Source of the DNA: Bryobacteraceae bacterium
Lineage (GTDB): Bacteria > Acidobacteriota > Terriglobia > Bryobacterales > Bryobacteraceae
Assembly: GCA_030041985.1 (NCBI GenBank)
Contig: JASIAM010000287.1
Location: 1 to 56,228 of the forward strand
DNA: 56,228 nt
Direction of reading: 5' to 3'
The notes beneath the pieces were generated by a model that was not told the DNA's origin, did not search any database, and saw only the letters and a program-made list of their open reading frames with translations. The position numbers were made by a program, and so were the translations under genes. Numbering within the stretch: the stretch's first letter is position 1; each line of letters opens with the position of its first letter. Positions 24,779-53,514 of the stretch are shown here, piece after piece.

Positions 24779-26419
24779 TTGAAAAAGCAGTCTTTAAAAA
24801 AGCAAAAGGCGGTTTCTCTTTCGATCTGCCTTCTGCTCCTGGCGGCATGGAGCGCGGCGGCAACTTGGTGGTTTTACCAAAAGGGTGAGCTTTACAATTA
24901 CGGCGATGCGGAAGCGCACCTGAACATAGCGCGGCGGGTGCTCGATTCGCAAACGCCGGGTTACGAGCAGATCGGGCGGATTTGGCTGCCGTTGCCTCAT
25001 CTGTTGATGGCGCCCCTGGCGCGAAACGACTGGCTGTGGCGCAGCGGTCTGGCCGGTTCGCTGCCGGCGGGGGCCTGTTTTGTGCTCGCCGGCGTGTTTT
25101 TGTTTGCAGCCGCGCGGCGGATCTTCGATTCCACAGCGGCAGCGGCGGCCGCAGTGGCGCTGTTTGCCGCTAATCCCAATCTGCTGTATCTGCAGTCAAC
25201 GGCCATGACTGAGCCGGTATTCGCGGCATGCCTGATGGCACTGCTATATTTCACGGTGCGGTTCCGCGAAACACAGGGCTGGTTTTCCGCGGCTGCCGCA
25301 GGTGTGGCCGCAAGCCTGGGCGCGCTGGCACGCTACGAAGGTTGGTTTGTCATTCCCTTTGCCGCTGCCTATTTTTTGTGGGCCGGGCGCAAATACCGGT
25401 TCGCGGCGGCGGCGGTTTTTTCCATTCTCGCGGTTACCGGACCGGCGCTTTGGCTGGCGCACAATTGGTGGCTGACGGGGGATGTGCTGGATTTCTATCG
25501 CGGGCCGAACTCGCCTATGGCAATACAAGGAGCGGCCCCGTATCCAGGGCACGGGAACTGGCGCGTGGCCTGGCTCTATTACAGAACCGCGGTGTCTCTC
25601 TGCGCGGGCCCGGCTCTGTTTTGGATGGGTGTGGCGGGCGTGGCGGCTGCGCTACTCCGGCGCGCTGTCTGGCCGGTAATTCTGCTTCTGCTGCCCGGTG
25701 TCTTTTATGTGTGGAGCATGCATTCGGCGGCCAGCCCCATTTTTGTTCCCACGCTCTGGCCCCATACCTACTACAACACGCGCTATGGGCTCGCCGTGCT
25801 GCCGCTATTAGCGTTCGCTGCGGGCGCGCTGGTAGCGCTAGCGCCGCTTCAACGCCAAAGCGTTTTCAAGCAAAGCTGGGCGGCGGGGCTGGTGGTGGCG
25901 GTGGGCGTGGCGCCTTGGATTTTCCACCCCGGCCGCGAAAATTGGATGACGCGGGAAGAGGCGTTTGTCAATTCCCAGGGCCGGCGCCAATGGACCGAGG
26001 AGGCGGCTGATTACCTGCGGCCGCGGTACGTTGCGGGATCGGGGATCATCACCTTTTTCGGCGACCTGACGGGGATTTTTCGGGCGATGGGCTTGCCGCT
26101 GCGAGAAACATTTACCGCCGATAATGGTTTGCCGTGGAAGGCTACGGTAAGACGCCCGGACCTGTTTCTGTGGCAGGAATGGGCGGTGGTCATGGGCGGC
26201 GACGAGGTGCAGAGTGCTATTAATCGCGCCGGCCGCTATGGAATCCGCTACCGCCTGGAGAAAATGATTATCGCGGGGAGAGATCCGGTGATCGAAATTT
26301 ACCGGCGTATCGGAGGGCCGGAGGTTAGTGTAGGGCCTGAAGAAGTGGACGGCCCGGAACGCCGGCCAGAAGCCCGGCGGCAGGGCAGAAGCCCTGACCC
26401 CACTGGACGGCACGAATGA
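24779..26419 (+). CDS. membrane glycosyltransferase-like protein, GT-C fold (ArnT/PMT-like)
   Basis: Protein of 546 residues with about ten membrane helices and a C-terminal soluble part of about 150 residues. An acidic motif after helix 1 (YNYGDAEAHLNIARR) matches the first-loop Asp-Glu site of GT-C lipid-linked sugar transferases. RYEGWFVIPFAAAYFLW and YNTRYGLAVLPLLAFAAG are typical later helices. The start is a TTG at 24779 with only AAGAAAG upstream. The last 25 residues are Arg/Pro-rich and encoded by a GC palindrome-rich stretch. The stop overlaps the dapF start as ATGA. A role in glycosylating lipid or protein is inferred. Confidence 0.75.
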   Translation: MKKQSLKKQKAVSLSICLLLLAAWSAAATWWFYQKGELYNYGDAEAHLNIARRVLDSQTPGYEQIGRIWLPLPHLLMAPLARNDWLWRSGLAGSLPAGACFVLAGVFLFAAARRIFDSTAAAAAAVALFAANPNLLYLQSTAMTEPVFAACLMALLYFTVRFRETQGWFSAAAAGVAASLGALARYEGWFVIPFAAAYFLWAGRKYRFAAAAVFSILAVTGPALWLAHNWWLTGDVLDFYRGPNSPMAIQGAAPYPGHGNWRVAWLYYRTAVSLCAGPALFWMGVAGVAAALLRRAVWPVILLLLPGVFYVWSMHSAASPIFVPTLWPHTYYNTRYGLAVLPLLAFAAGALVALAPLQRQSVFKQSWAAGLVVAVGVAPWIFHPGRENWMTREEAFVNSQGRRQWTEEAADYLRPRYVAGSGIITFFGDLTGIFRAMGLPLRETFTADNGLPWKATVRRPDLFLWQEWAVVMGGDEVQSAINRAGRYGIRYRLEKMIIAGRDPVIEIYRRIGGPEVSVGPEEVDGPERRPEARRQGRSPDPTGRHE

Positions 26420-27207
26420 AAATACCTTTTACGAAGGCCCATGGCGCACGAAACGACTTTTTGCTCACGTGGTCGAAGGACGCGCCGGGGAGCGATTTAG
26501 CCGCGATAGCGCGCGCCATTTGCGATCGGCATACGGGGATCGGGGCGGATGGGTGGCTGATCGTGGGAACTGCGGGCGCTGAAGCCGAGGGAGAGATCCA
26601 CCTTTATAATTCCGATGGCAGCATGGCTGAGATTTCGGGCAATGGCACGCGCTGCGCGGCCGCCTTCCTGATCCGGCACGGATGCGCGCCAGGGCTGGTG
26701 CGCATCCGCACCGGAGCGGGCGTCAAGACGCTCCGCTTGCTGCAGCGGCGCGAGTTGTGGTTTCAATTCGAGATGAACATGGGGCGGCCGGAAATCGTGG
26801 CCGAGCGCTTCCCCTTGCCGCTGGGGGAAGGCGTTCGCGATGTTACGCTGCTGCGCGTTGGCAATCCGCAGTGCGCGGTGCCGGTCGAAGATTTTGAATT
26901 TGACTGGCGGGGAATCGGGTCTCGGATCGCAGTCCATCCCCACTTTCCCGAGGGCACCAACGTTTCCTTTTTCCAAGCCGTGGACGGGCACTCGATCGAA
27001 GCGCGTTTCTACGAGCGTGGCGCTGGAGAAACCATGAGCTCTGGCACGGGATCGACGGGGGCTGCCGTGGCGGCGGTTCTCCGTGGCATGGTTGCTTCGC
27101 CAGTGCGTGTGCGCACGCCTGCAGGTCCGATCGATATTCGCCTGGACGGCGACGTATTTCTTACCGGACCCGCGGAAATCGTGGCCGAAGGCGAATTCTT
27201 CGTGTGA
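26416..27207 (+). CDS. dapF: diaminopimelate epimerase-like protein, second catalytic Cys replaced by Ser
   Basis: Two-lobed epimerase of 263 residues. Family marks are KAHGARNDFLLTW, HTGIGADGWLIV, NSDGSMAEISGNGTRCAAA (catalytic Cys80) and VGNPQCAVPVEDFEF. The second active-site block should read GET-x-ACGTG but reads GAGETMSSGTGS, placing Ser209 (codon TCT at 27040-27042) where the other catalytic Cys belongs. DapF uses two cysteines to invert L,L- to meso-diaminopimelate, so this protein may be slow, or act on another substrate or reaction in the superfamily. Whether the genome has another dapF cannot be seen here. Confidence 0.82.
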   Translation: MKIPFTKAHGARNDFLLTWSKDAPGSDLAAIARAICDRHTGIGADGWLIVGTAGAEAEGEIHLYNSDGSMAEISGNGTRCAAAFLIRHGCAPGLVRIRTGAGVKTLRLLQRRELWFQFEMNMGRPEIVAERFPLPLGEGVRDVTLLRVGNPQCAVPVEDFEFDWRGIGSRIAVHPHFPEGTNVSFFQAVDGHSIEARFYERGAGETMSSGTGSTGAAVAAVLRGMVASPVRVRTPAGPIDIRLDGDVFLTGPAEIVAEGEFFV

Positions 27208-27219
27208 AAATAACTTCAA

Positions 27220-28551
27220 ATGTCTGATGTTGCTCCAATCGACAGTCTGGCAACGGCCACGATTCTGCAAGAAAAGATTCGCGCGCGCCGCGCCCGCGTA
27301 GGAATCGTGGGGCTGGGCTATGTTGGTCTTCCCTTGGCGGTAGAATTTGCGCGCGCCGGCTTCCCGGTAACCGGCATTGATGTCAGCCGCGCCAAAACAG
27401 AGCAGGTAAACCAGGGCGATTCGTACGTGGGCGATGTGCCCTCGGAGGTGCTCCGGCCGCTGGCCGAAAGCGGGAAACTGCGCGCCACCACCGATTTTTC
27501 CGCGGTGCTGGACCTGGACACCATTAACATTTGTGTGCCCACGCCGCTGCGCAAGACGAAAGACCCCGACATGAGCTATATCGTGTCGGCGTGCCAGGAG
27601 ATCGCCGCTCATTTACATCCTGGGCTGCTGGTGATCCTGGAGTCCACGACGTACCCCGGTACGACCGACGAATTGGTTCTGCCCATGCTTTCAAAATCCG
27701 GCCTGCAAGTGGGCCAGGATTTCTTCCTGTGTTTCTCGCCGGAGCGGGTGGACCCGGGTAATCCCAAATATCAGACGGCCAACATTCCCAAGGTAGTGGG
27801 CGGAGTGACTCCCGCGTGCACGGAAATGGGCCGCTTATTCTACGCGCAAGCGCTGGAGCGCGTGGTGCCGGTGAGCTCGACGCAAGTGGCCGAAATGGTG
27901 AAGTTGCTCGAAAACACGTTCCGCATGATCAACATCGGGCTGGCCAACGAGATCGCGCTGATGTGCGGCCGCATGGGAGTGAACGTGTGGGAAGTGATCG
28001 ATGCCGCCGCTACCAAGCCCTTCGGGTTCATGCCGTTTTATCCAGGCCCCGGGCTGGGCGGCCACTGCATTCCCATCGATCCGTTCTATCTCTCCTGGAA
28101 GACCAAGCAGGCGGGGATTGAAGCGCGCTTCATCGAACTGGCCGGATACATCAACGGGCAGATGCCTCACTTCGTGCTCTCCAAAGTGCAAGACGCGTTG
28201 AACGAAGCGGCCAAACCGCTGAAGGGATCGCGGGTGCATGTGATGGGCGTAGCGTACAAGCGCAACATCGATGACGTGCGGGAATCACCGGCGCTCGATC
28301 TGTTGCTACTGCTCCGGCAACGGGGCGCGGTGGTGAGTTACAGCGATCCATACGTGCCAGTGCTCGCCTTAGACGGGATCGACTTGCAGGCACAAGCACC
28401 GGAGGATGGAGCGGCTGAGGCGGATTGCGTGGTCATCGTGACCGATCATGCCGTTTTCGATTACCACGCCCTGGTGAAGCACGCCAAGCTGATCGTGGAT
28501 ACACGGAACTCGTTGAAGGGCTTTACCTCGGAGAAGATTGTGCGGCTCTGA
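27220..28551 (+). CDS. UDP-N-acetyl-hexosamine 6-dehydrogenase (WbpA/WecC family)
   Basis: Nucleotide-sugar dehydrogenase of 443 residues making a UDP-sugar uronic acid by two NAD-linked oxidations. The Rossmann block is VGIVGLGYVGLPLAVEFA, the catalytic Cys lies in GPGLGGHCIPIDPFYL and the C-terminal domain has VHVMGVAYKRNIDDVRESPA. The pattern favours the UDP-GlcNAc/UDP-ManNAc type over UDP-glucose dehydrogenase. It follows dapF by 12 bases and may serve surface polysaccharide synthesis together with the GT-C protein two genes upstream. Confidence 0.9.
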   Translation: MSDVAPIDSLATATILQEKIRARRARVGIVGLGYVGLPLAVEFARAGFPVTGIDVSRAKTEQVNQGDSYVGDVPSEVLRPLAESGKLRATTDFSAVLDLDTINICVPTPLRKTKDPDMSYIVSACQEIAAHLHPGLLVILESTTYPGTTDELVLPMLSKSGLQVGQDFFLCFSPERVDPGNPKYQTANIPKVVGGVTPACTEMGRLFYAQALERVVPVSSTQVAEMVKLLENTFRMINIGLANEIALMCGRMGVNVWEVIDAAATKPFGFMPFYPGPGLGGHCIPIDPFYLSWKTKQAGIEARFIELAGYINGQMPHFVLSKVQDALNEAAKPLKGSRVHVMGVAYKRNIDDVRESPALDLLLLLRQRGAVVSYSDPYVPVLALDGIDLQAQAPEDGAAEADCVVIVTDHAVFDYHALVKHAKLIVDTRNSLKGFTSEKIVRL

Positions 28552-45593: not shown

Positions 45594-48335
45594 ATGGACC
45601 GCCACCAGATTGAACGCGGCCGCCGGCGGACGCGCTCGTCCCTGGCCACCCGGATTACTCTCATCGTGATCGCGCTGCTGTTGCTGCTGGGCGCGCGGTC
45701 CATTGCCTCGTACACCATCGATTTCCAGTGGTGGAACGAAATGGGGCAATTGAACACCTGGTTCAGTCTGCTGATCTACAGCGTGGCCCCGCTGATCGGA
45801 GCGACCCTGCTGGCTTTCGCCGCTCTGTGGGTGGCTCACGCGCGCGCTTTGAAATTTGCCGGCACGGGTTTGCACGAGCATCCGATTTACGCGCGTGTTT
45901 CCGCGCTCCTGCTGCTTTTGCTGGGTTATCTGATCGCGGCCTCATCCGTGGATACCTGGACTGTAGTGCGCTACGCCGGCTCGCGCGGTCTTCCGGCCGC
46001 AGCCACAGCTTGGCACGACACGGTTTTCCAGAAGCCGCTATCGTTTTACCTCTTCGACCTGCCTTTCTACCTTTCCGTGCGCAGCTATATTCTGGCGCTG
46101 GTGATTTTCTGCATTCTTACGTACTGGATTGCAGCTCGCGGGTGGCAATTGCGCTACCGGCTGCCGCAACTGCGGGAAGCGCCCGAGTTCGATCCCTCGG
46201 TGCTGCGTCTCGAAGGCGGTCTGGAATCGAAATTCCTGCGCGGCGCGGCGGTGGCGCTGCTACTGGCGTTTGCGCTGCGCTTCTTTTTGGCGCGCTACGA
46301 AATGGTCTATAACGACCACGGCACCTTCATGGTGGGCATCGATTACGTCGACCAGAATATCGGCATTCCTCTGCAGTGGCTGGTGATTTTCGCGTGTCTG
46401 GCGGCGGCGGTGCTGGTGTGGATGGGCCGCTGGCTGCTGGCAAGCTCGATGGCACTGGCGCTGGTGGTGGCGTTTATTGTACCGCGCGCGGTAAGCGCGC
46501 TGTACGTGGGGCCAAACGAAATTTCGCTCGAGCGGCCTTACATCGATGCCCATATACATGCCACGCGCAGCGCCTATGGCCTCGAACAGAACGTAAAGGA
46601 GGTGGAATTTAAAGCGCAGCCGGAAGGGCCGATCGATGTGGCACAGAACCGGCCGCTGCTCGATAACGTGCGCCTGTGGGACTGGCGCGCCTTTCACGAC
46701 ACCATTACCCAAATTCAGGCACTCCGTCCCTATTATGTATTCCAGGGCGCTGACGTGGATCGCTATACCATCGACGGCCAATACCGCCAGGTGCTGCTGT
46801 CACCCCGCGAACTCGATCTCAGCCAGTTGCCGGCGGCGCGCGCAAACTGGATCAATCCGGCATTCATCTACACGCATGGGTACGGCTTGGTGATGGCGCT
46901 GGCCAGCCAGATCACGCCCGATGGCCTGCCGGTGCTGCTCATCGATGACGCCCCGCCGCAGGTGAAGACCAAAAGCCTCAAGCTGACCCGGCCGGAGCTG
47001 TATTACGGCGAAGTCACCCATGAGCCGGTATTCGTCGATACCGCGCAGGACGAGTTCAACTATCCTTCCGGCGAAAGTAACGTGTCTACCCATTACAGCG
47101 GCAAAGGCGGTTTTCCGATTTCTTCGTTTCCGCTACGCCTGGCCGCGGCGATCCGGGAAGGCCAGCCGAACATTCTGCTAACCGACTATTTGACACCGAG
47201 CAGCCGCATGATGATTTACCGGCGCGTGCCTGAGCGGCTCAAGAAGCTGGCGGGTTTTCTCGACTGGGATAGCGACCCCTACCTGGTGATTACGGAATCG
47301 GGGCGCCTGGTGTGGATGGTGGATGGCTATACGACTTCGGACGCGCACCCCTATTCGCGGGCGGTGGAAGTGCCCGACATGGGCCGGATCAATTACATTC
47401 GCAATGCCGTGAAGGCCACGGTGGACGCATACGATGGGGAGACGCATCTTTATGTATTCGCGCCCAATGACCCGATCATAGCCGCATACGAGAAGTTGTT
47501 CCCGGACCTGTTCCTGCCGGCCTCCGCCATGCCCGCCGATTTGCGGGCGCACGCGCGCTACCCGGAAACTCTGTTCGACATTCAGGCCGAAATCTATCGC
47601 ACCTACCATATGCTCGACCCTCAATCTTTCTACAACAAGGAGGATCTGTGGGACTTGGCGCGGCATGTAACGACACAAGAACAAGGGTCCGATAGCGTCA
47701 GCCCGACTTACGTGGTCGCGACGCTGCCGGGCGAAACCCAGCCGGAGTTTCTGCTGCTGACTCCCTTCACCCCGCGCAATAAAGACAACCTGATTGGCCT
47801 GATGGTAGCGCGCTGCGACGGGCCGAACCTGGGGCAGATTGTGGTGCTGCAGCTTTCGAAACAAGAGCTGATCTTCGGCCCCATGCAGGTTAACGCGCGC
47901 GTCAACCAGGATCAGACGATTTCCAAGGACCTGACGCTGTGGAACCAGCAAGGCTCGCAGGTGCTGCGCGGCCAGACGCTGGTGCTGCCGGTGGGAGACA
48001 CGTTCCTGTATGTAGACCCGATTTACATCCAGGCGACCGAAGCGCGCATGCCGCAATTGAAGAAGGTGGTGCTGGCAGTGGGCAACAGGCTCATCTACGC
48101 CGATACCTACGAGCAGGCCCTCCAGCAGCTTTCGAGTGGTGCGCAGCAACTGGTCCAGCAGGCGAGCGCGCCGGCCGCTACGGCGCCTGCGGCAGCAGGA
48201 GCAGCGGCGCCCGCGCAAGATCCGCGAATTGCGCGCGTACGCGAACACTTGCAGCGCTATCGTGAGTTATCCGCACAAGGCAAGTGGGCCGAGGCAGGCA
48301 AGGAGTTGGAAGCGATTGAGGCGGAGGTGAAGTGA
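45594..48335 (+). CDS. UPF0182 family membrane protein
   Basis: Large protein of 913 residues of the COG1615/UPF0182 family, known from cyanobacteria, actinobacteria and others, function unknown. Seven hydrophobic helices lie in about the first 300 residues (for example LATRITLIVIALLLLLGARS). The long extracytoplasmic domain has the typical YYGEVTHEPVFVDTAQDEFN, GKGGFPISSFPLRLAAAIRE and DPYLVITESGRLVWMVDGYT blocks. An Ala-rich tail and a final helix follow. Complete. The stop overlaps the DinB gene start as GTGA. Confidence 0.92.
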   Translation: MDRHQIERGRRRTRSSLATRITLIVIALLLLLGARSIASYTIDFQWWNEMGQLNTWFSLLIYSVAPLIGATLLAFAALWVAHARALKFAGTGLHEHPIYARVSALLLLLLGYLIAASSVDTWTVVRYAGSRGLPAAATAWHDTVFQKPLSFYLFDLPFYLSVRSYILALVIFCILTYWIAARGWQLRYRLPQLREAPEFDPSVLRLEGGLESKFLRGAAVALLLAFALRFFLARYEMVYNDHGTFMVGIDYVDQNIGIPLQWLVIFACLAAAVLVWMGRWLLASSMALALVVAFIVPRAVSALYVGPNEISLERPYIDAHIHATRSAYGLEQNVKEVEFKAQPEGPIDVAQNRPLLDNVRLWDWRAFHDTITQIQALRPYYVFQGADVDRYTIDGQYRQVLLSPRELDLSQLPAARANWINPAFIYTHGYGLVMALASQITPDGLPVLLIDDAPPQVKTKSLKLTRPELYYGEVTHEPVFVDTAQDEFNYPSGESNVSTHYSGKGGFPISSFPLRLAAAIREGQPNILLTDYLTPSSRMMIYRRVPERLKKLAGFLDWDSDPYLVITESGRLVWMVDGYTTSDAHPYSRAVEVPDMGRINYIRNAVKATVDAYDGETHLYVFAPNDPIIAAYEKLFPDLFLPASAMPADLRAHARYPETLFDIQAEIYRTYHMLDPQSFYNKEDLWDLARHVTTQEQGSDSVSPTYVVATLPGETQPEFLLLTPFTPRNKDNLIGLMVARCDGPNLGQIVVLQLSKQELIFGPMQVNARVNQDQTISKDLTLWNQQGSQVLRGQTLVLPVGDTFLYVDPIYIQATEARMPQLKKVVLAVGNRLIYADTYEQALQQLSSGAQQLVQQASAPAATAPAAAGAAAPAQDPRIARVREHLQRYRELSAQGKWAEAGKELEAIEAEVK

Positions 48336-50223: not shown

Positions 50224-53200
50224 ATGCGCGTTTCCGATCTGTTTGCATCTGAATTTGACAGCCGCAGCCGTTCGCGCGGCGCTGCTTATTACCGTTCCGG
50301 AGCCGTGGTCATTCATGAAGGCGGCGATAACGCAGTGAATGCGGAGGTTCACGGCGAATCCGGCCGTTACGACGTCGAAATAGGTCTCGACGACGTGGAC
50401 GGCTTCGGGATGTGGTGCGAGTGCCCCTACTTCGGCGCCAACGGACCCTGTAAGCACCTGTGGGCTACCCTGCTGGCCGCGGAAGCCCGCGGCTACCTGC
50501 GCAAGGTGCTTCCGGCAATGCTCCCTCCGTCCGGCTATGACCTGTTCGGCGACCCCATCAATCCCGCAGCGCCCGCGCTGCAACTGGTGAAGCGGGACGT
50601 TCCCCCTCCGCCCAAGCCGCCTGTCTGGCTGAAGCAGCTTCACGAGCTGGCCGGCCAGTCAACCCGTTCCGCTGCCCATTGGCCCTCCGCGCGCCAGCTC
50701 CTTTATGTGATCGATGTGCCCTCCAGCATGCACGGCGCGGCGCTCGTCATCAAGCTCTTGGCGCGCGAACCCAAAAAGGCCGGCGGCTGGAAGAAGCCCG
50801 CACCCCCGCGCCTGGACCGCAATGCGCTCCATTCTTTACCGGACCCCGCCGATCGCCACATCGTCGGCATGCTCTCCAGCGCTACTGGCCAACATGACTG
50901 GATGTCGTCATCCTGGTACGAAGGGCTGCCTGCCAACTACCGTCTTCTGCACCCGCTCTCCGGCACCCTGATGCCGCTCATCGCCGGCTCGGGGCGCGCC
51001 ATGTTGCAGATGGACATCATTGGCCACGAACTGCTCCCTCTCGCCTGGGATCCCGCTGGCCCGTGGCACTTCCATCTCGGCTTGAACCGGCAGGCGGATG
51101 GCAACTGGGCTATCACCGGCACTCTGCGGCGCGAGGGCGAAGAGATGGATATTTCCGCGCCCGTGCTGGTCACCGAGGGCGGCCTCGTATTTACGCGAGA
51201 CCGTGTTGCGCCGCTGGCGGAAGACACCCGCTTTGCGTTGATTGCCTACCTGCGCCACGCAGGCCCGATTACCGCCCGGGACCACGAAGCCAGGCAACTC
51301 CTCGGCGCCGCGCTGGAGCACGTGGGCGAACATCTGGACGTTCCCGAGGAGTTGCGTTACGAGGAACTCCATGTCGCAGCGAAGCCATGCCTCACCATTC
51401 GCAGTCCGCAGCGCGGCTCCTGGAATCCCGAACGCTTGCGCGCCGCGCTTAGTTTCGATTACCAGGGCCGCCGCGTGCCGGAATCAGCGCCTTCCCGCGG
51501 CATTTACGACACCGAAGCCGGAACCTTCCTGGTGCGCGATTTTGCGGCGGAGAACGCGGCCCGCCAGCTTCTCACAGACCTCGGAGTTTCGGCGCTTCCC
51601 GCGCGGCAGTATGAAGAAACCGATCCCGCTTGGGACCTGCCCGCCAAGAAACTTCCAGCCGTGGTGGTTGCCTGCGTGGCCGCCGGGTGGCACATCGATG
51701 CCGATGGCAAAGTGTTTCGCCGTCCCGGCGCCATGCGCGTGGAAGTAGCCTCGGGAATCGACTGGTTCGATCTCAACGGAGAGGTCGATTATGGGGAAAC
51801 CACTGCCAAACTTCCCGATCTGTTGGCAGCCGTGCGGCGCGGCGAGAACATGGTGCGGCTGGGCGATGGAACGTATGGCCTGCTACCCGAAGAGTGGCTC
51901 AGCCGGTTCGGCGCAGTCGCCGGACTAGGGCAGGCCACCGATGGGGCCCTCCGCTTCCGCCGCAACCAGGCTGGCCTCCTCGATGCCTTGCTGGCCGCGC
52001 AGCCCGAAGCGTCGTGCGACCAGACCTTCACCCGCCTGCGCGATCAGTTGCGCGCTTTTCGCGGCATCCGTGCCGCCGCGCAGCCCGCCGGTTTTTCCGG
52101 CCAGCTCCGCGAGTATCAGCGCGAGGGAGTCGGCTGGATGCATTTCCTGCGCACTTTTGGTTTCGGCGGCTGCCTGGCCGATGATATGGGCGTCGGCAAA
52201 ACAGCGCAGGTGCTGGCTCTGCTGGAGCACCGTCGCGCGCTGCGTCTAGCTGGCGCCGAAACCAACGGTGCAGGGGATCCCGCACCTTCCGCCCCCTCGC
52301 TGGTGGTCGTTCCCAGATCGCTGGTCTTCAATTGGAAACAGGAGGCCGCGCGTTTCGCGCCGCAGCTTCGCGTCCTCGAACATACCGGCGGCGGGCGCAG
52401 TCTCAATGGTTTCTCCGGCTACGACGTCGTTCTCACCACCTACGGCACCCTGCGGCGCGACGCCGTGGAATTTAAGGACCTCGAGTTCGATTACATCGTG
52501 CTCGATGAAGCCCAGGCCATCAAGAACGCCGATACGGAATCCGCCAAAGCCGTGCGCCTGTTGCGCGGCCGCAATCGCCTCGCCCTCAGCGGGACACCCG
52601 TAGAAAATCATCTGGGCGAGTTGTGGAGCCTGTTCGAGTTTCTCAATCCCGGCATGCTCGGCGCAGCGAGTGTATTTAAGCTGGCCGGAAGCGCCGCCCG
52701 CAATCCCAGCGAGGAAACGCGTCACCTGCTGGCCAGCGCCTTGCGGCCTTTCATCCTGCGGCGCACCAAGGAGCAGGTCGCCCGCGAACTGCCCGTCAAA
52801 TCGGAGCAGACCATCTACTGCGAACTGGAGGGGCCGCAGCGCAAGCTCTATAACGAACTACGCGCGCATTACCGCAACAGCCTGCTGCATCGGGTAGAAG
52901 AGAAAGGTATGGCGAACAGCCAGATGCAGGTCCTCGAAGCCCTGCTGCGGCTTCGCCAGGCCGCCTGTCACCCGGGCCTGCTCGATTCCAAACGCGTCAA
53001 AGAGTCCAGCGCCAAGCTCGATGTTCTGATCGCCCAATTAGAGGAGGTCATCGAAGAGGGCCACAAAGCCTTGGTGTTCTCGCAATTCACCAGCCTGCTC
53101 GCTATCGTGCGGCAACGGCTGAACGACGCCGGCGTCACCTACGAATATCTCGACGGCGCTACGCGCGATCGCCAGCAGAGCGTCGATCGCTTTCAGAACG

Positions 53201-53514
53201 ACCCCGCGTGCCCCCTGTTCCTGATCAGCCTCAAAGCCGGAGGCCTGGGCCTCAATCTCACCGCCGCCGAATATGTCTTTCTGCTCGACCCCTGGTGGAA
53301 CCCCGCCGTAGAAGCCCAGGCCGTAGACCGCGCCCACCGCATCGGCCAGACACACCAGGTGTTCGCTTACCGTCTGATCGCGCGGGACACCGTGGAAGAA
53401 AAGGTGCTCGAGCTGCAAAGCACCAAGCGCGATCTGGCGGCAGCCATCATCAGCGAAGACAACAGCCCGCTGCGCAACCTGCGGCGCGAAGATCTGGAAC
53501 TACTGCTTTCGTAG
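50224..53514 (+). CDS. SNF2-family helicase with N-terminal SWIM zinc finger
   Basis: DNA-dependent ATPase of 1096 residues. The SWIM finger is CxC at 65-67 and CxH at 76-78 (CECPYFGANGPCKHLW). A long middle part of unknown fold leads to motif I DDMGVGKTAQVLAL (about 655), motif II VLDEAQAIKN (about 760) and motif III ALSGTPVENHLGELWSLF. The second RecA lobe holds LVFSQFTSLLAIV, AGGLGLNLTAAEYVF and DRAHRIGQTHQVFAYR. All motifs are complete. Bacterial homologues are often linked to chromatin or repair functions and in some cases to defence; no partner is near, and the next gene downstream is broken. Confidence 0.94.
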   Translation: MRVSDLFASEFDSRSRSRGAAYYRSGAVVIHEGGDNAVNAEVHGESGRYDVEIGLDDVDGFGMWCECPYFGANGPCKHLWATLLAAEARGYLRKVLPAMLPPSGYDLFGDPINPAAPALQLVKRDVPPPPKPPVWLKQLHELAGQSTRSAAHWPSARQLLYVIDVPSSMHGAALVIKLLAREPKKAGGWKKPAPPRLDRNALHSLPDPADRHIVGMLSSATGQHDWMSSSWYEGLPANYRLLHPLSGTLMPLIAGSGRAMLQMDIIGHELLPLAWDPAGPWHFHLGLNRQADGNWAITGTLRREGEEMDISAPVLVTEGGLVFTRDRVAPLAEDTRFALIAYLRHAGPITARDHEARQLLGAALEHVGEHLDVPEELRYEELHVAAKPCLTIRSPQRGSWNPERLRAALSFDYQGRRVPESAPSRGIYDTEAGTFLVRDFAAENAARQLLTDLGVSALPARQYEETDPAWDLPAKKLPAVVVACVAAGWHIDADGKVFRRPGAMRVEVASGIDWFDLNGEVDYGETTAKLPDLLAAVRRGENMVRLGDGTYGLLPEEWLSRFGAVAGLGQATDGALRFRRNQAGLLDALLAAQPEASCDQTFTRLRDQLRAFRGIRAAAQPAGFSGQLREYQREGVGWMHFLRTFGFGGCLADDMGVGKTAQVLALLEHRRALRLAGAETNGAGDPAPSAPSLVVVPRSLVFNWKQEAARFAPQLRVLEHTGGGRSLNGFSGYDVVLTTYGTLRRDAVEFKDLEFDYIVLDEAQAIKNADTESAKAVRLLRGRNRLALSGTPVENHLGELWSLFEFLNPGMLGAASVFKLAGSAARNPSEETRHLLASALRPFILRRTKEQVARELPVKSEQTIYCELEGPQRKLYNELRAHYRNSLLHRVEEKGMANSQMQVLEALLRLRQAACHPGLLDSKRVKESSAKLDVLIAQLEEVIEEGHKALVFSQFTSLLAIVRQRLNDAGVTYEYLDGATRDRQQSVDRFQNDPACPLFLISLKAGGLGLNLTAAEYVFLLDPWWNPAVEAQAVDRAHRIGQTHQVFAYRLIARDTVEEKVLELQSTKRDLAAAIISEDNSPLRNLRREDLELLLS

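Follow-up and report, generated by a model that had tools for sequence, protein, structure and literature searches.

In the current explanation of cofactor-independent racemases, a cysteine thiol/thiolate pair removes a proton of pKa ~29; a hydroxyl, with a pKa of ~16, is expected to be a far worse base, and engineered serine mutants agree with this. Among these enzymes is the diaminopimelate (DAP) epimerase DapF, whose product is an essential building block for cell wall and lysine. The first catalytic cysteine of DapF is the Cys of the signature C-[GI]-N-[GA]-x-R (PMC8225329), namely Cys75 in the Anabaena enzyme (PMC12039745), in which both catalytic cysteines stand at helix N-termini, the helices and main-chain amides being held to lower their pKa, and in which N13, N66, N164, N197, E215 and R216 contact DAP (PMC12039745). 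Serine has a precedent in this fold, in two enzymes of the proline racemase superfamily: Ser93/Cys255 in 4-hydroxyproline 2-epimerase (4HypE) and Ser90/Thr256 in trans-3-hydroxyproline dehydratase (t3HypD) (PMC4113996). Here we describe a dapF homologue from a Bryobacteraceae bacterium that carries serine at both catalytic positions.

Results

The window, meaning the whole stretch of 56,228 nucleotides analysed, holds a dapF homologue encoding 263 aa at 26416..27207 on the + strand, the strand on which the codons and flanking genes located below also lie. The window protein was recognised by the DapF equivalog TIGR00652 (195.9 bits vs a cut-off of 114.65) and by PF01678 (137.5 bits vs 34.7), its sole Pfam match at E 0.001. 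When the sequence of Anabaena DapF (PDB 9mro) was numbered in the alignment, Cys75 and Cys224 fell exactly on Ser74 (codon TCG, 26635..26637) and Ser209 (codon TCT, 27040..27042), positions that we take to be those of Cys73 and Cys217 in H. influenzae DapF. Because these two serines occupy the Cys75/Cys224 positions, both catalytic cysteines are serine, and the window DapF is, by alignment, a double Cys-to-Ser replacement at the catalytic sites (Ser/Ser type, first site/second site). The second catalytic motif reads GETMSSGTG (27028..27054), the canonical form being GETxACGTG. An earlier note on this DNA had reported this motif with Ser209 at its TCT codon and had placed Ser209 at a catalytic cysteine, and both points were borne out, the one by translation and the other by the alignment with Cys224. 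It had also taken Cys80 (codon TGC, 26653..26655) for the remaining catalytic cysteine, which was wrong: this residue, part of GNGTRC, falls on Anabaena Cys81, a non-catalytic residue that ends the GNGxRC motif, and the true first site is Ser74. Neither the Cys of C-G-N-G nor that of A-C-G-[TS]-G, by which a canonical thiol/thiolate DapF was recognised, is present in the window protein.

An AlphaFold2 model, for which the window protein was aligned with 36 of its 39 relatives, predicted the two-domain DapF fold (pLDDT 94.4, pTM 0.91), with helices 75-87 and 210-222 starting directly after Ser74 and Ser209. Among the structural matches listed, the best was Anabaena DapF 9mro (Z 36.2, rmsd 1.8, 255 residues), further DapF matches being 3ejx (Z 35.2) and 5m47 (Z 33.1), and proline-racemase and PhzF folds ranked lower, at Z 27 and below. 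The Pfam scan at E 0.001 gave no match of the window protein to families of the proline racemase superfamily (4HypE, t3HypD) or to PhzF/PrpF-type isomerase families, to which the likeness is one of fold only. The bifunctional DapF/glutamate racemase (NF038284) belongs to the DapF family, as the window protein does, but its model scored 64.2 bits on the window protein vs a cut-off of 350. At the six DAP-contact positions the window protein has N13, N65, N150, N182, E200 and R201; N13, N65, N182, E200 and R201 (Anabaena 13, 66, 197, 215 and 216) were kept in 116/116 Ser/Ser proteins, and N150 (Anabaena Asn164) in 109/116.

We then examined homologues in two sets. Named loci, a set biased to relatives of the window gene because it was found with the window protein, gave a readable DapF in 39 of 40 cases (one 17-residue fragment, L042, and two copies of the window gene, L001 and L002, were dropped before counting), of which 37 were Ser/Ser and 2, both from other phyla, Cys/Cys. 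The alignment of Acidobacteriota homologues proposed in the earlier note was run on 149 evenly sampled genomes of the phylum. The window protein found a match in 137 of them, the window's genome included; Ser at both sites was common, with 78 Ser/Ser, 58 Cys/Cys and 4 Cys/Ser among the 140 genes read, while two of the 12 genomes without a match to the window protein match PF01678 and stand outside these counts. The serine codons were TCN in 106/115 and AGY in 9/115 at the first site, and TCN in 108/115 and AGY in 7/115 at the second. A sequencing error, which the earlier note had allowed for, is excluded by the recurrence of both serines in more than 100 independent homologues, including 37/39 named-locus and 78/140 phylum genes. 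Gene decay is excluded by the same recurrence together with dN/dS values of 0.09-0.13 between the window gene and four relatives (a fifth pair was saturated), which point to strong purifying selection. The possibility, also raised in that note, that serine at this site is widespread in proven DAP epimerases stood in part: it is widespread in homologues, but no proven epimerase was found among them. Among 115 matching plasmid records, ten dapF genes were read, nine of them Cys/Cys and one Cys/Ser. Viral contigs, when scanned, yielded four dapF loci: 1 Ser/Ser, 1 Cys/Cys and 2 near-identical Cys/Ser.

In a tree of 96 of the 197 rows, with both trait columns hidden, the Ser/Ser proteins formed three groups, SS1 (support 97, starred), SSH (100) and SS2 (100), and the state needs three changes. 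By the AU test, holding SS1 and SS2 together was rejected (p 0.0196), holding all three groups together was borderline and not rejected at 0.05 (p 0.053), and holding SS1 with SSH was not rejected (p 0.725), its likelihood being above that of the free tree; these p values are optimistic because the groups were named after the tree was seen. Ser/Ser likely arose at least twice on this evidence, and three origins are possible.

Several further forms were seen among the homologues. The Ser/Ser dapF of a viral-collection contig (L194) grouped with SSH genes of family f23, and three genomes (G065, G076 and G106) have an SSH-group Ser/Ser gene beside a divergent Cys/Cys gene. Divergent Cys/Cys DapF-like proteins of f23 (L169-L173, L175-L177 and L180) have Asp at position 66 and CSN for CGN, and since the score of one of them, 99.8 bits, does not reach the DapF cut-off, another substrate is possible for them. 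Cys/Ser DapF proteins of Acidobacteriota (L116, L118, L122 and L120), possible intermediates, come from genomes without LysA above the cut-off. A Sphingomonas morindae plasmid (L198) and two viral contigs (L191 and L192) encode Cys/Ser proteins that also have a Cys at 227 (SGSC), in which the second catalytic cysteine has perhaps moved by one helical turn. Val stands for the DAP-contact Asn164 in 41/62 of the Acidobacteriota Cys/Cys set (such as L111-L168), and this Cys/Cys form is a separate subtype, mostly from genomes without LysA above the cut-off.

To place the gene in its pathway, we searched the window's genome (G000; 6.0 Mb, 98% complete), in which one PF01678 gene was found; the second, canonical dapF for which the earlier note had suggested looking was not found there with PF01678. 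Four close genomes, when rechecked, had one gene each over the PF01678 cut-off, and third PF01678 matches of two sampled genomes (G049 and G147) lay below it at 21-22 bits. A meso-DAP dehydrogenase (Ddh) acting in place of DapF in G000 was rejected, as TIGR01921 gave no match there; Ddh exceeded the TIGR01921 cut-off in 1/149 genomes, a Cys/Cys one. A cluster on another contig of G000 carries, on one strand, a DapE-like deacylase, Asd, LysC (aspartokinase), DapB, DapA and DapD, the last five each scoring above a cut-off and the deacylase below all. The direct L,L-DAP aminotransferase route was also rejected for G000, since the best candidate fell below the cut-offs of TIGR03540 (423 vs 593) and TIGR03542 (126 vs 364.7), and the DapD route was found instead; the best hit of that candidate was an alanine transaminase model, also below its cut-off. 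A succinyl-DAP aminotransferase was not identified in G000. LysA, which decarboxylates meso-DAP, scored 485 bits vs its equivalog cut-off of 297.9, and MurE, whose gene is broken across contig ends, contains TSDNPRSE, in which DNPR is the usual meso-DAP motif of this enzyme.

Because DapB, DapA, DapD, LysA and a DNPR-type MurE are present, L,L-DAP is very likely made and meso-DAP needed in G000, where the window DapF is the only recognised route from L,L-DAP to meso-DAP. From this pathway context we infer that the window protein epimerises DAP. It is probably the cell's working LL-/meso-DAP epimerase, using a thiol-free Ser/Ser acid-base pair, a reading that we favour because of the kept DAP pocket, the predicted fold, the wide conservation and the lack of any other DapF or Ddh match in the genome. 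Direct use of L,L-DAP by MurE and LysA, which would leave the DapF homologue nearly dispensable, is very improbable: some actinobacteria have L,L-DAP in the cell wall, but the window gene is under strong purifying selection with an intact pocket, LysA scores as an ordinary family member, over its equivalog cut-off, and the DNPR motif, the usual sign of meso-DAP, was found in MurE of 19 of the 20 Ser/Ser genomes read. A literature search on the cell wall of these bacteria yielded nothing useful. An unlikely alternative of another kind is that the window protein is a DAP-binding pseudoenzyme or regulator and that meso-DAP comes from an unrelated, unrecognised epimerase. Such a role would fit the loss of both catalytic thiols, as comparable mutants of relatives are almost inactive, and E. 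coli DapF is reported to bind RppH too (PMC4227774). However, this explanation requires an extra enzyme of a new kind in many genomes, the same Ser/Ser pair seems to have been reached in two lineages or more, and all 116 Ser/Ser proteins keep five pocket residues and the two serines, which a pseudoenzyme need not do.

Across the sampled genomes, 49 of the 68 genomes of SS1, the main Ser/Ser clade, had LysA above the cut-off together with a Ser/Ser DapF as the sole DapF found; a further 5/68 had a LysA match of 200-298 bits and 14/68 less or none, and Ddh exceeded its cut-off in 0/68. The 49 genomes span 25 family codes, and 48 of them are at least 90% complete. LysA exceeded the cut-off in 9/55 Cys/Cys-only, 0/7 SS2 and 0/4 Cys/Ser genomes, and a Fisher test of 49/68 vs 9/55 gave p 7e-10, a value that ignores phylogeny and may only reflect lineages. 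The 19/68 SS1 and 7/7 SS2 genomes without LysA above the cut-off speak against a Ser/Ser DAP epimerase.

The gene lies between a GT-C-like membrane protein with a PMT_2 domain (24779..26419, Pfam), whose gene shares 4 bases with the start of dapF, and a nucleotide-sugar dehydrogenase (27220..28551; TIGR03026, 429.6 bits vs a cut-off of 189.8), so that the setting first described from the letters holds. With simple ORF calling, a similar GT-C-like gene was upstream in 30/112 and a similar sugar dehydrogenase downstream in 19/107 Ser/Ser neighbours, and neither was seen at the Cys/Cys or Cys/Ser loci compared. Among 58 neighbours of 30 Ser/Ser loci, an HtrA/DegP protease was the commonest (5), and a DapE-ArgE-type deacylase (3/58) was the only lysine-type family, both among the 25 of 140 families listed for Ser/Ser; the list for the comparison set gave 25 of 161. 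The neighbour scan of Cys/Cys and Cys/Ser loci covered 35 of the 39 ORFs listed. The distance from lysine genes, to which the earlier note had given weight, is real, in that the lysine genes found in G000 lie on three other contigs, but it makes a weak argument: the position is unremarkable because sampled dapF neighbours are rarely lysine-type among the families listed. Elsewhere, the window encodes a 1096-aa SNF2-type helicase (50224-53514; 423 bits vs a model cut-off of 1200) and a 913-aa protein of PRK00068 type, below cut-offs (45594-48335).

The same note had read the loss of a catalytic cysteine as a change into a dehydratase or an enzyme for another substrate, which we found unsupported and regard as highly unlikely. 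Ser/Thr or Cys/Thr pairs do go with trans-3-hydroxyproline dehydratase (PMC4113996, PMC4364671), but 4HypE with its Ser/Cys pair shows that Ser need not mean dehydration (PMC4113996). Moreover, the window protein keeps the DAP residues and is the sole PF01678 product of a genome whose DAP pathway needs an epimerase, and the neighbours, among the families listed, offer no catabolic context.

Finally, we looked for residues that might compensate for the missing thiols. Positions specific to Ser/Ser (conserved to 80% or more in Asn164-type Ser/Ser proteins and shared by no more than 40% of 12 canonical sequences that have Asn164) were only Leu16, Cys36, Ala44, Ala83 and the two catalytic serines, and no clear compensating change near Ser74 or Ser209 stands out in 116 Ser/Ser proteins. 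It is doubtful that the protein, while a DAP epimerase, uses another group as its base (Glu72, a bound water, or Cys36/Cys80) with the serines only positioning it, although in t3HypD it is an Asn side chain that positions the catalytic Ser (PMC4113996). Glu72 (codon GAG, 26629..26631), two residues before Ser74, occurs in 106/116 Ser/Ser vs 12/74 Cys/Cys proteins, and 6 of the 10 Ser/Ser proteins without it carry Cys at position 227; yet 7/12 canonical sequences have this Glu too, and a test on independent tree pairs had 2 pairs, too few to reach significance, so that Glu72 as a helper of Ser74 is a speculative lead only. All 116 Ser/Ser proteins keep Cys36 or Cys80 (Cys80 is missing from 14/116, Cys36 from 5/116, and none lacks both), so a residual thiol role is formally possible, but neither is universal in Ser/Ser and each is frequent in Cys/Cys enzymes as well, and we rejected them as the replacement cysteine. 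In family f21, six Ser/Ser proteins (L050, L051, L069, L074, L082 and L084) have Cys at Anabaena position 227 (SGTC, not SGTG), and at Anabaena position 73 their Glu is replaced by Gly; a relocated thiol at 227 is possible in them.

Discussion

A DAP epimerase with a Ser/Ser pair would keep the geometry of the canonical enzyme, with serines replacing cysteines at the two helix ends and flanking the alpha-carbon of the bound DAP from both faces. One serine, deprotonated with the help of the helix dipole and main-chain amides, would take the alpha-proton, and the other would give a proton from the opposite face; these acid and base roles are what we infer for the pair. Several described enzymes speak against it. 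A single Cys-to-Ser change left PddB with <0.1% activity, and similar remnants are cited for a DapF (PMC8225329); Cys-to-Ser in HisR greatly reduced turnover (PMC11602996); Cys-to-Ala almost abolished C. glutamicum DapF (PMC5296763); and the sole natural Cys-free pair that we found described in the family, Ser/Thr, belongs to a dehydratase and not to an epimerase (PMC4113996). Either a hydroxyl would be made basic in a new way, or a low rate would be enough for the cell, or the role of base would fall to another group. The broader claim, that much of Acidobacteriota depends for its meso-DAP solely on a thiol-free Ser/Ser DAP epimerase, reached at least twice independently, has in our estimate an even chance of being correct.

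If the Ser/Ser version sustains a large group of bacteria, the thiol/thiolate explanation of these enzymes would be incomplete, and the group would offer a natural system showing how a hydroxyl becomes basic enough. Thiol-directed DapF inhibitors and a Cys-based active-site signature would then miss the Ser/Ser enzymes, a catalytic change that automatic annotation would have hidden. No description of a Ser/Ser DapF or of a natural Ser/Ser epimerase was found in searches of an open library of papers.

Compared with known systems, the window protein stands nearest to Cys/Cys DapF (TIGR00652; Anabaena 9mro, C. glutamicum 5m47 and H. influenzae 1gqz), with which it shares family, fold, DAP contacts, the acid/base positions at two helix N-termini and the pathway setting, and from which it differs in having serine at both catalytic cysteines. 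The redox-switch disulfide of C. glutamicum DapF (PMC5296763) would be missing from it, because it has no thiol/thiolate pair. The engineered H. influenzae variants C73S and C217S (PDB 2q9h and 2q9j, matching the window model at Z 30.1 and 29.6) have the same replacement at the same positions, but singly and made in the laboratory, whereas in the window protein both occur together, naturally and conserved. 4HypE and t3HypD share the fold class and a natural Ser at the first site, but belong to another sequence family with another substrate, have Cys or Thr and not Ser as the second residue, and position their Ser by an Asn three residues on, where the window protein has Gly77 (PMC4113996). Collectively, judged from sequence, the Ser/Ser DapF appears to be a variant of the known DapF enzyme, in which the Ser/Ser pair is what is new.
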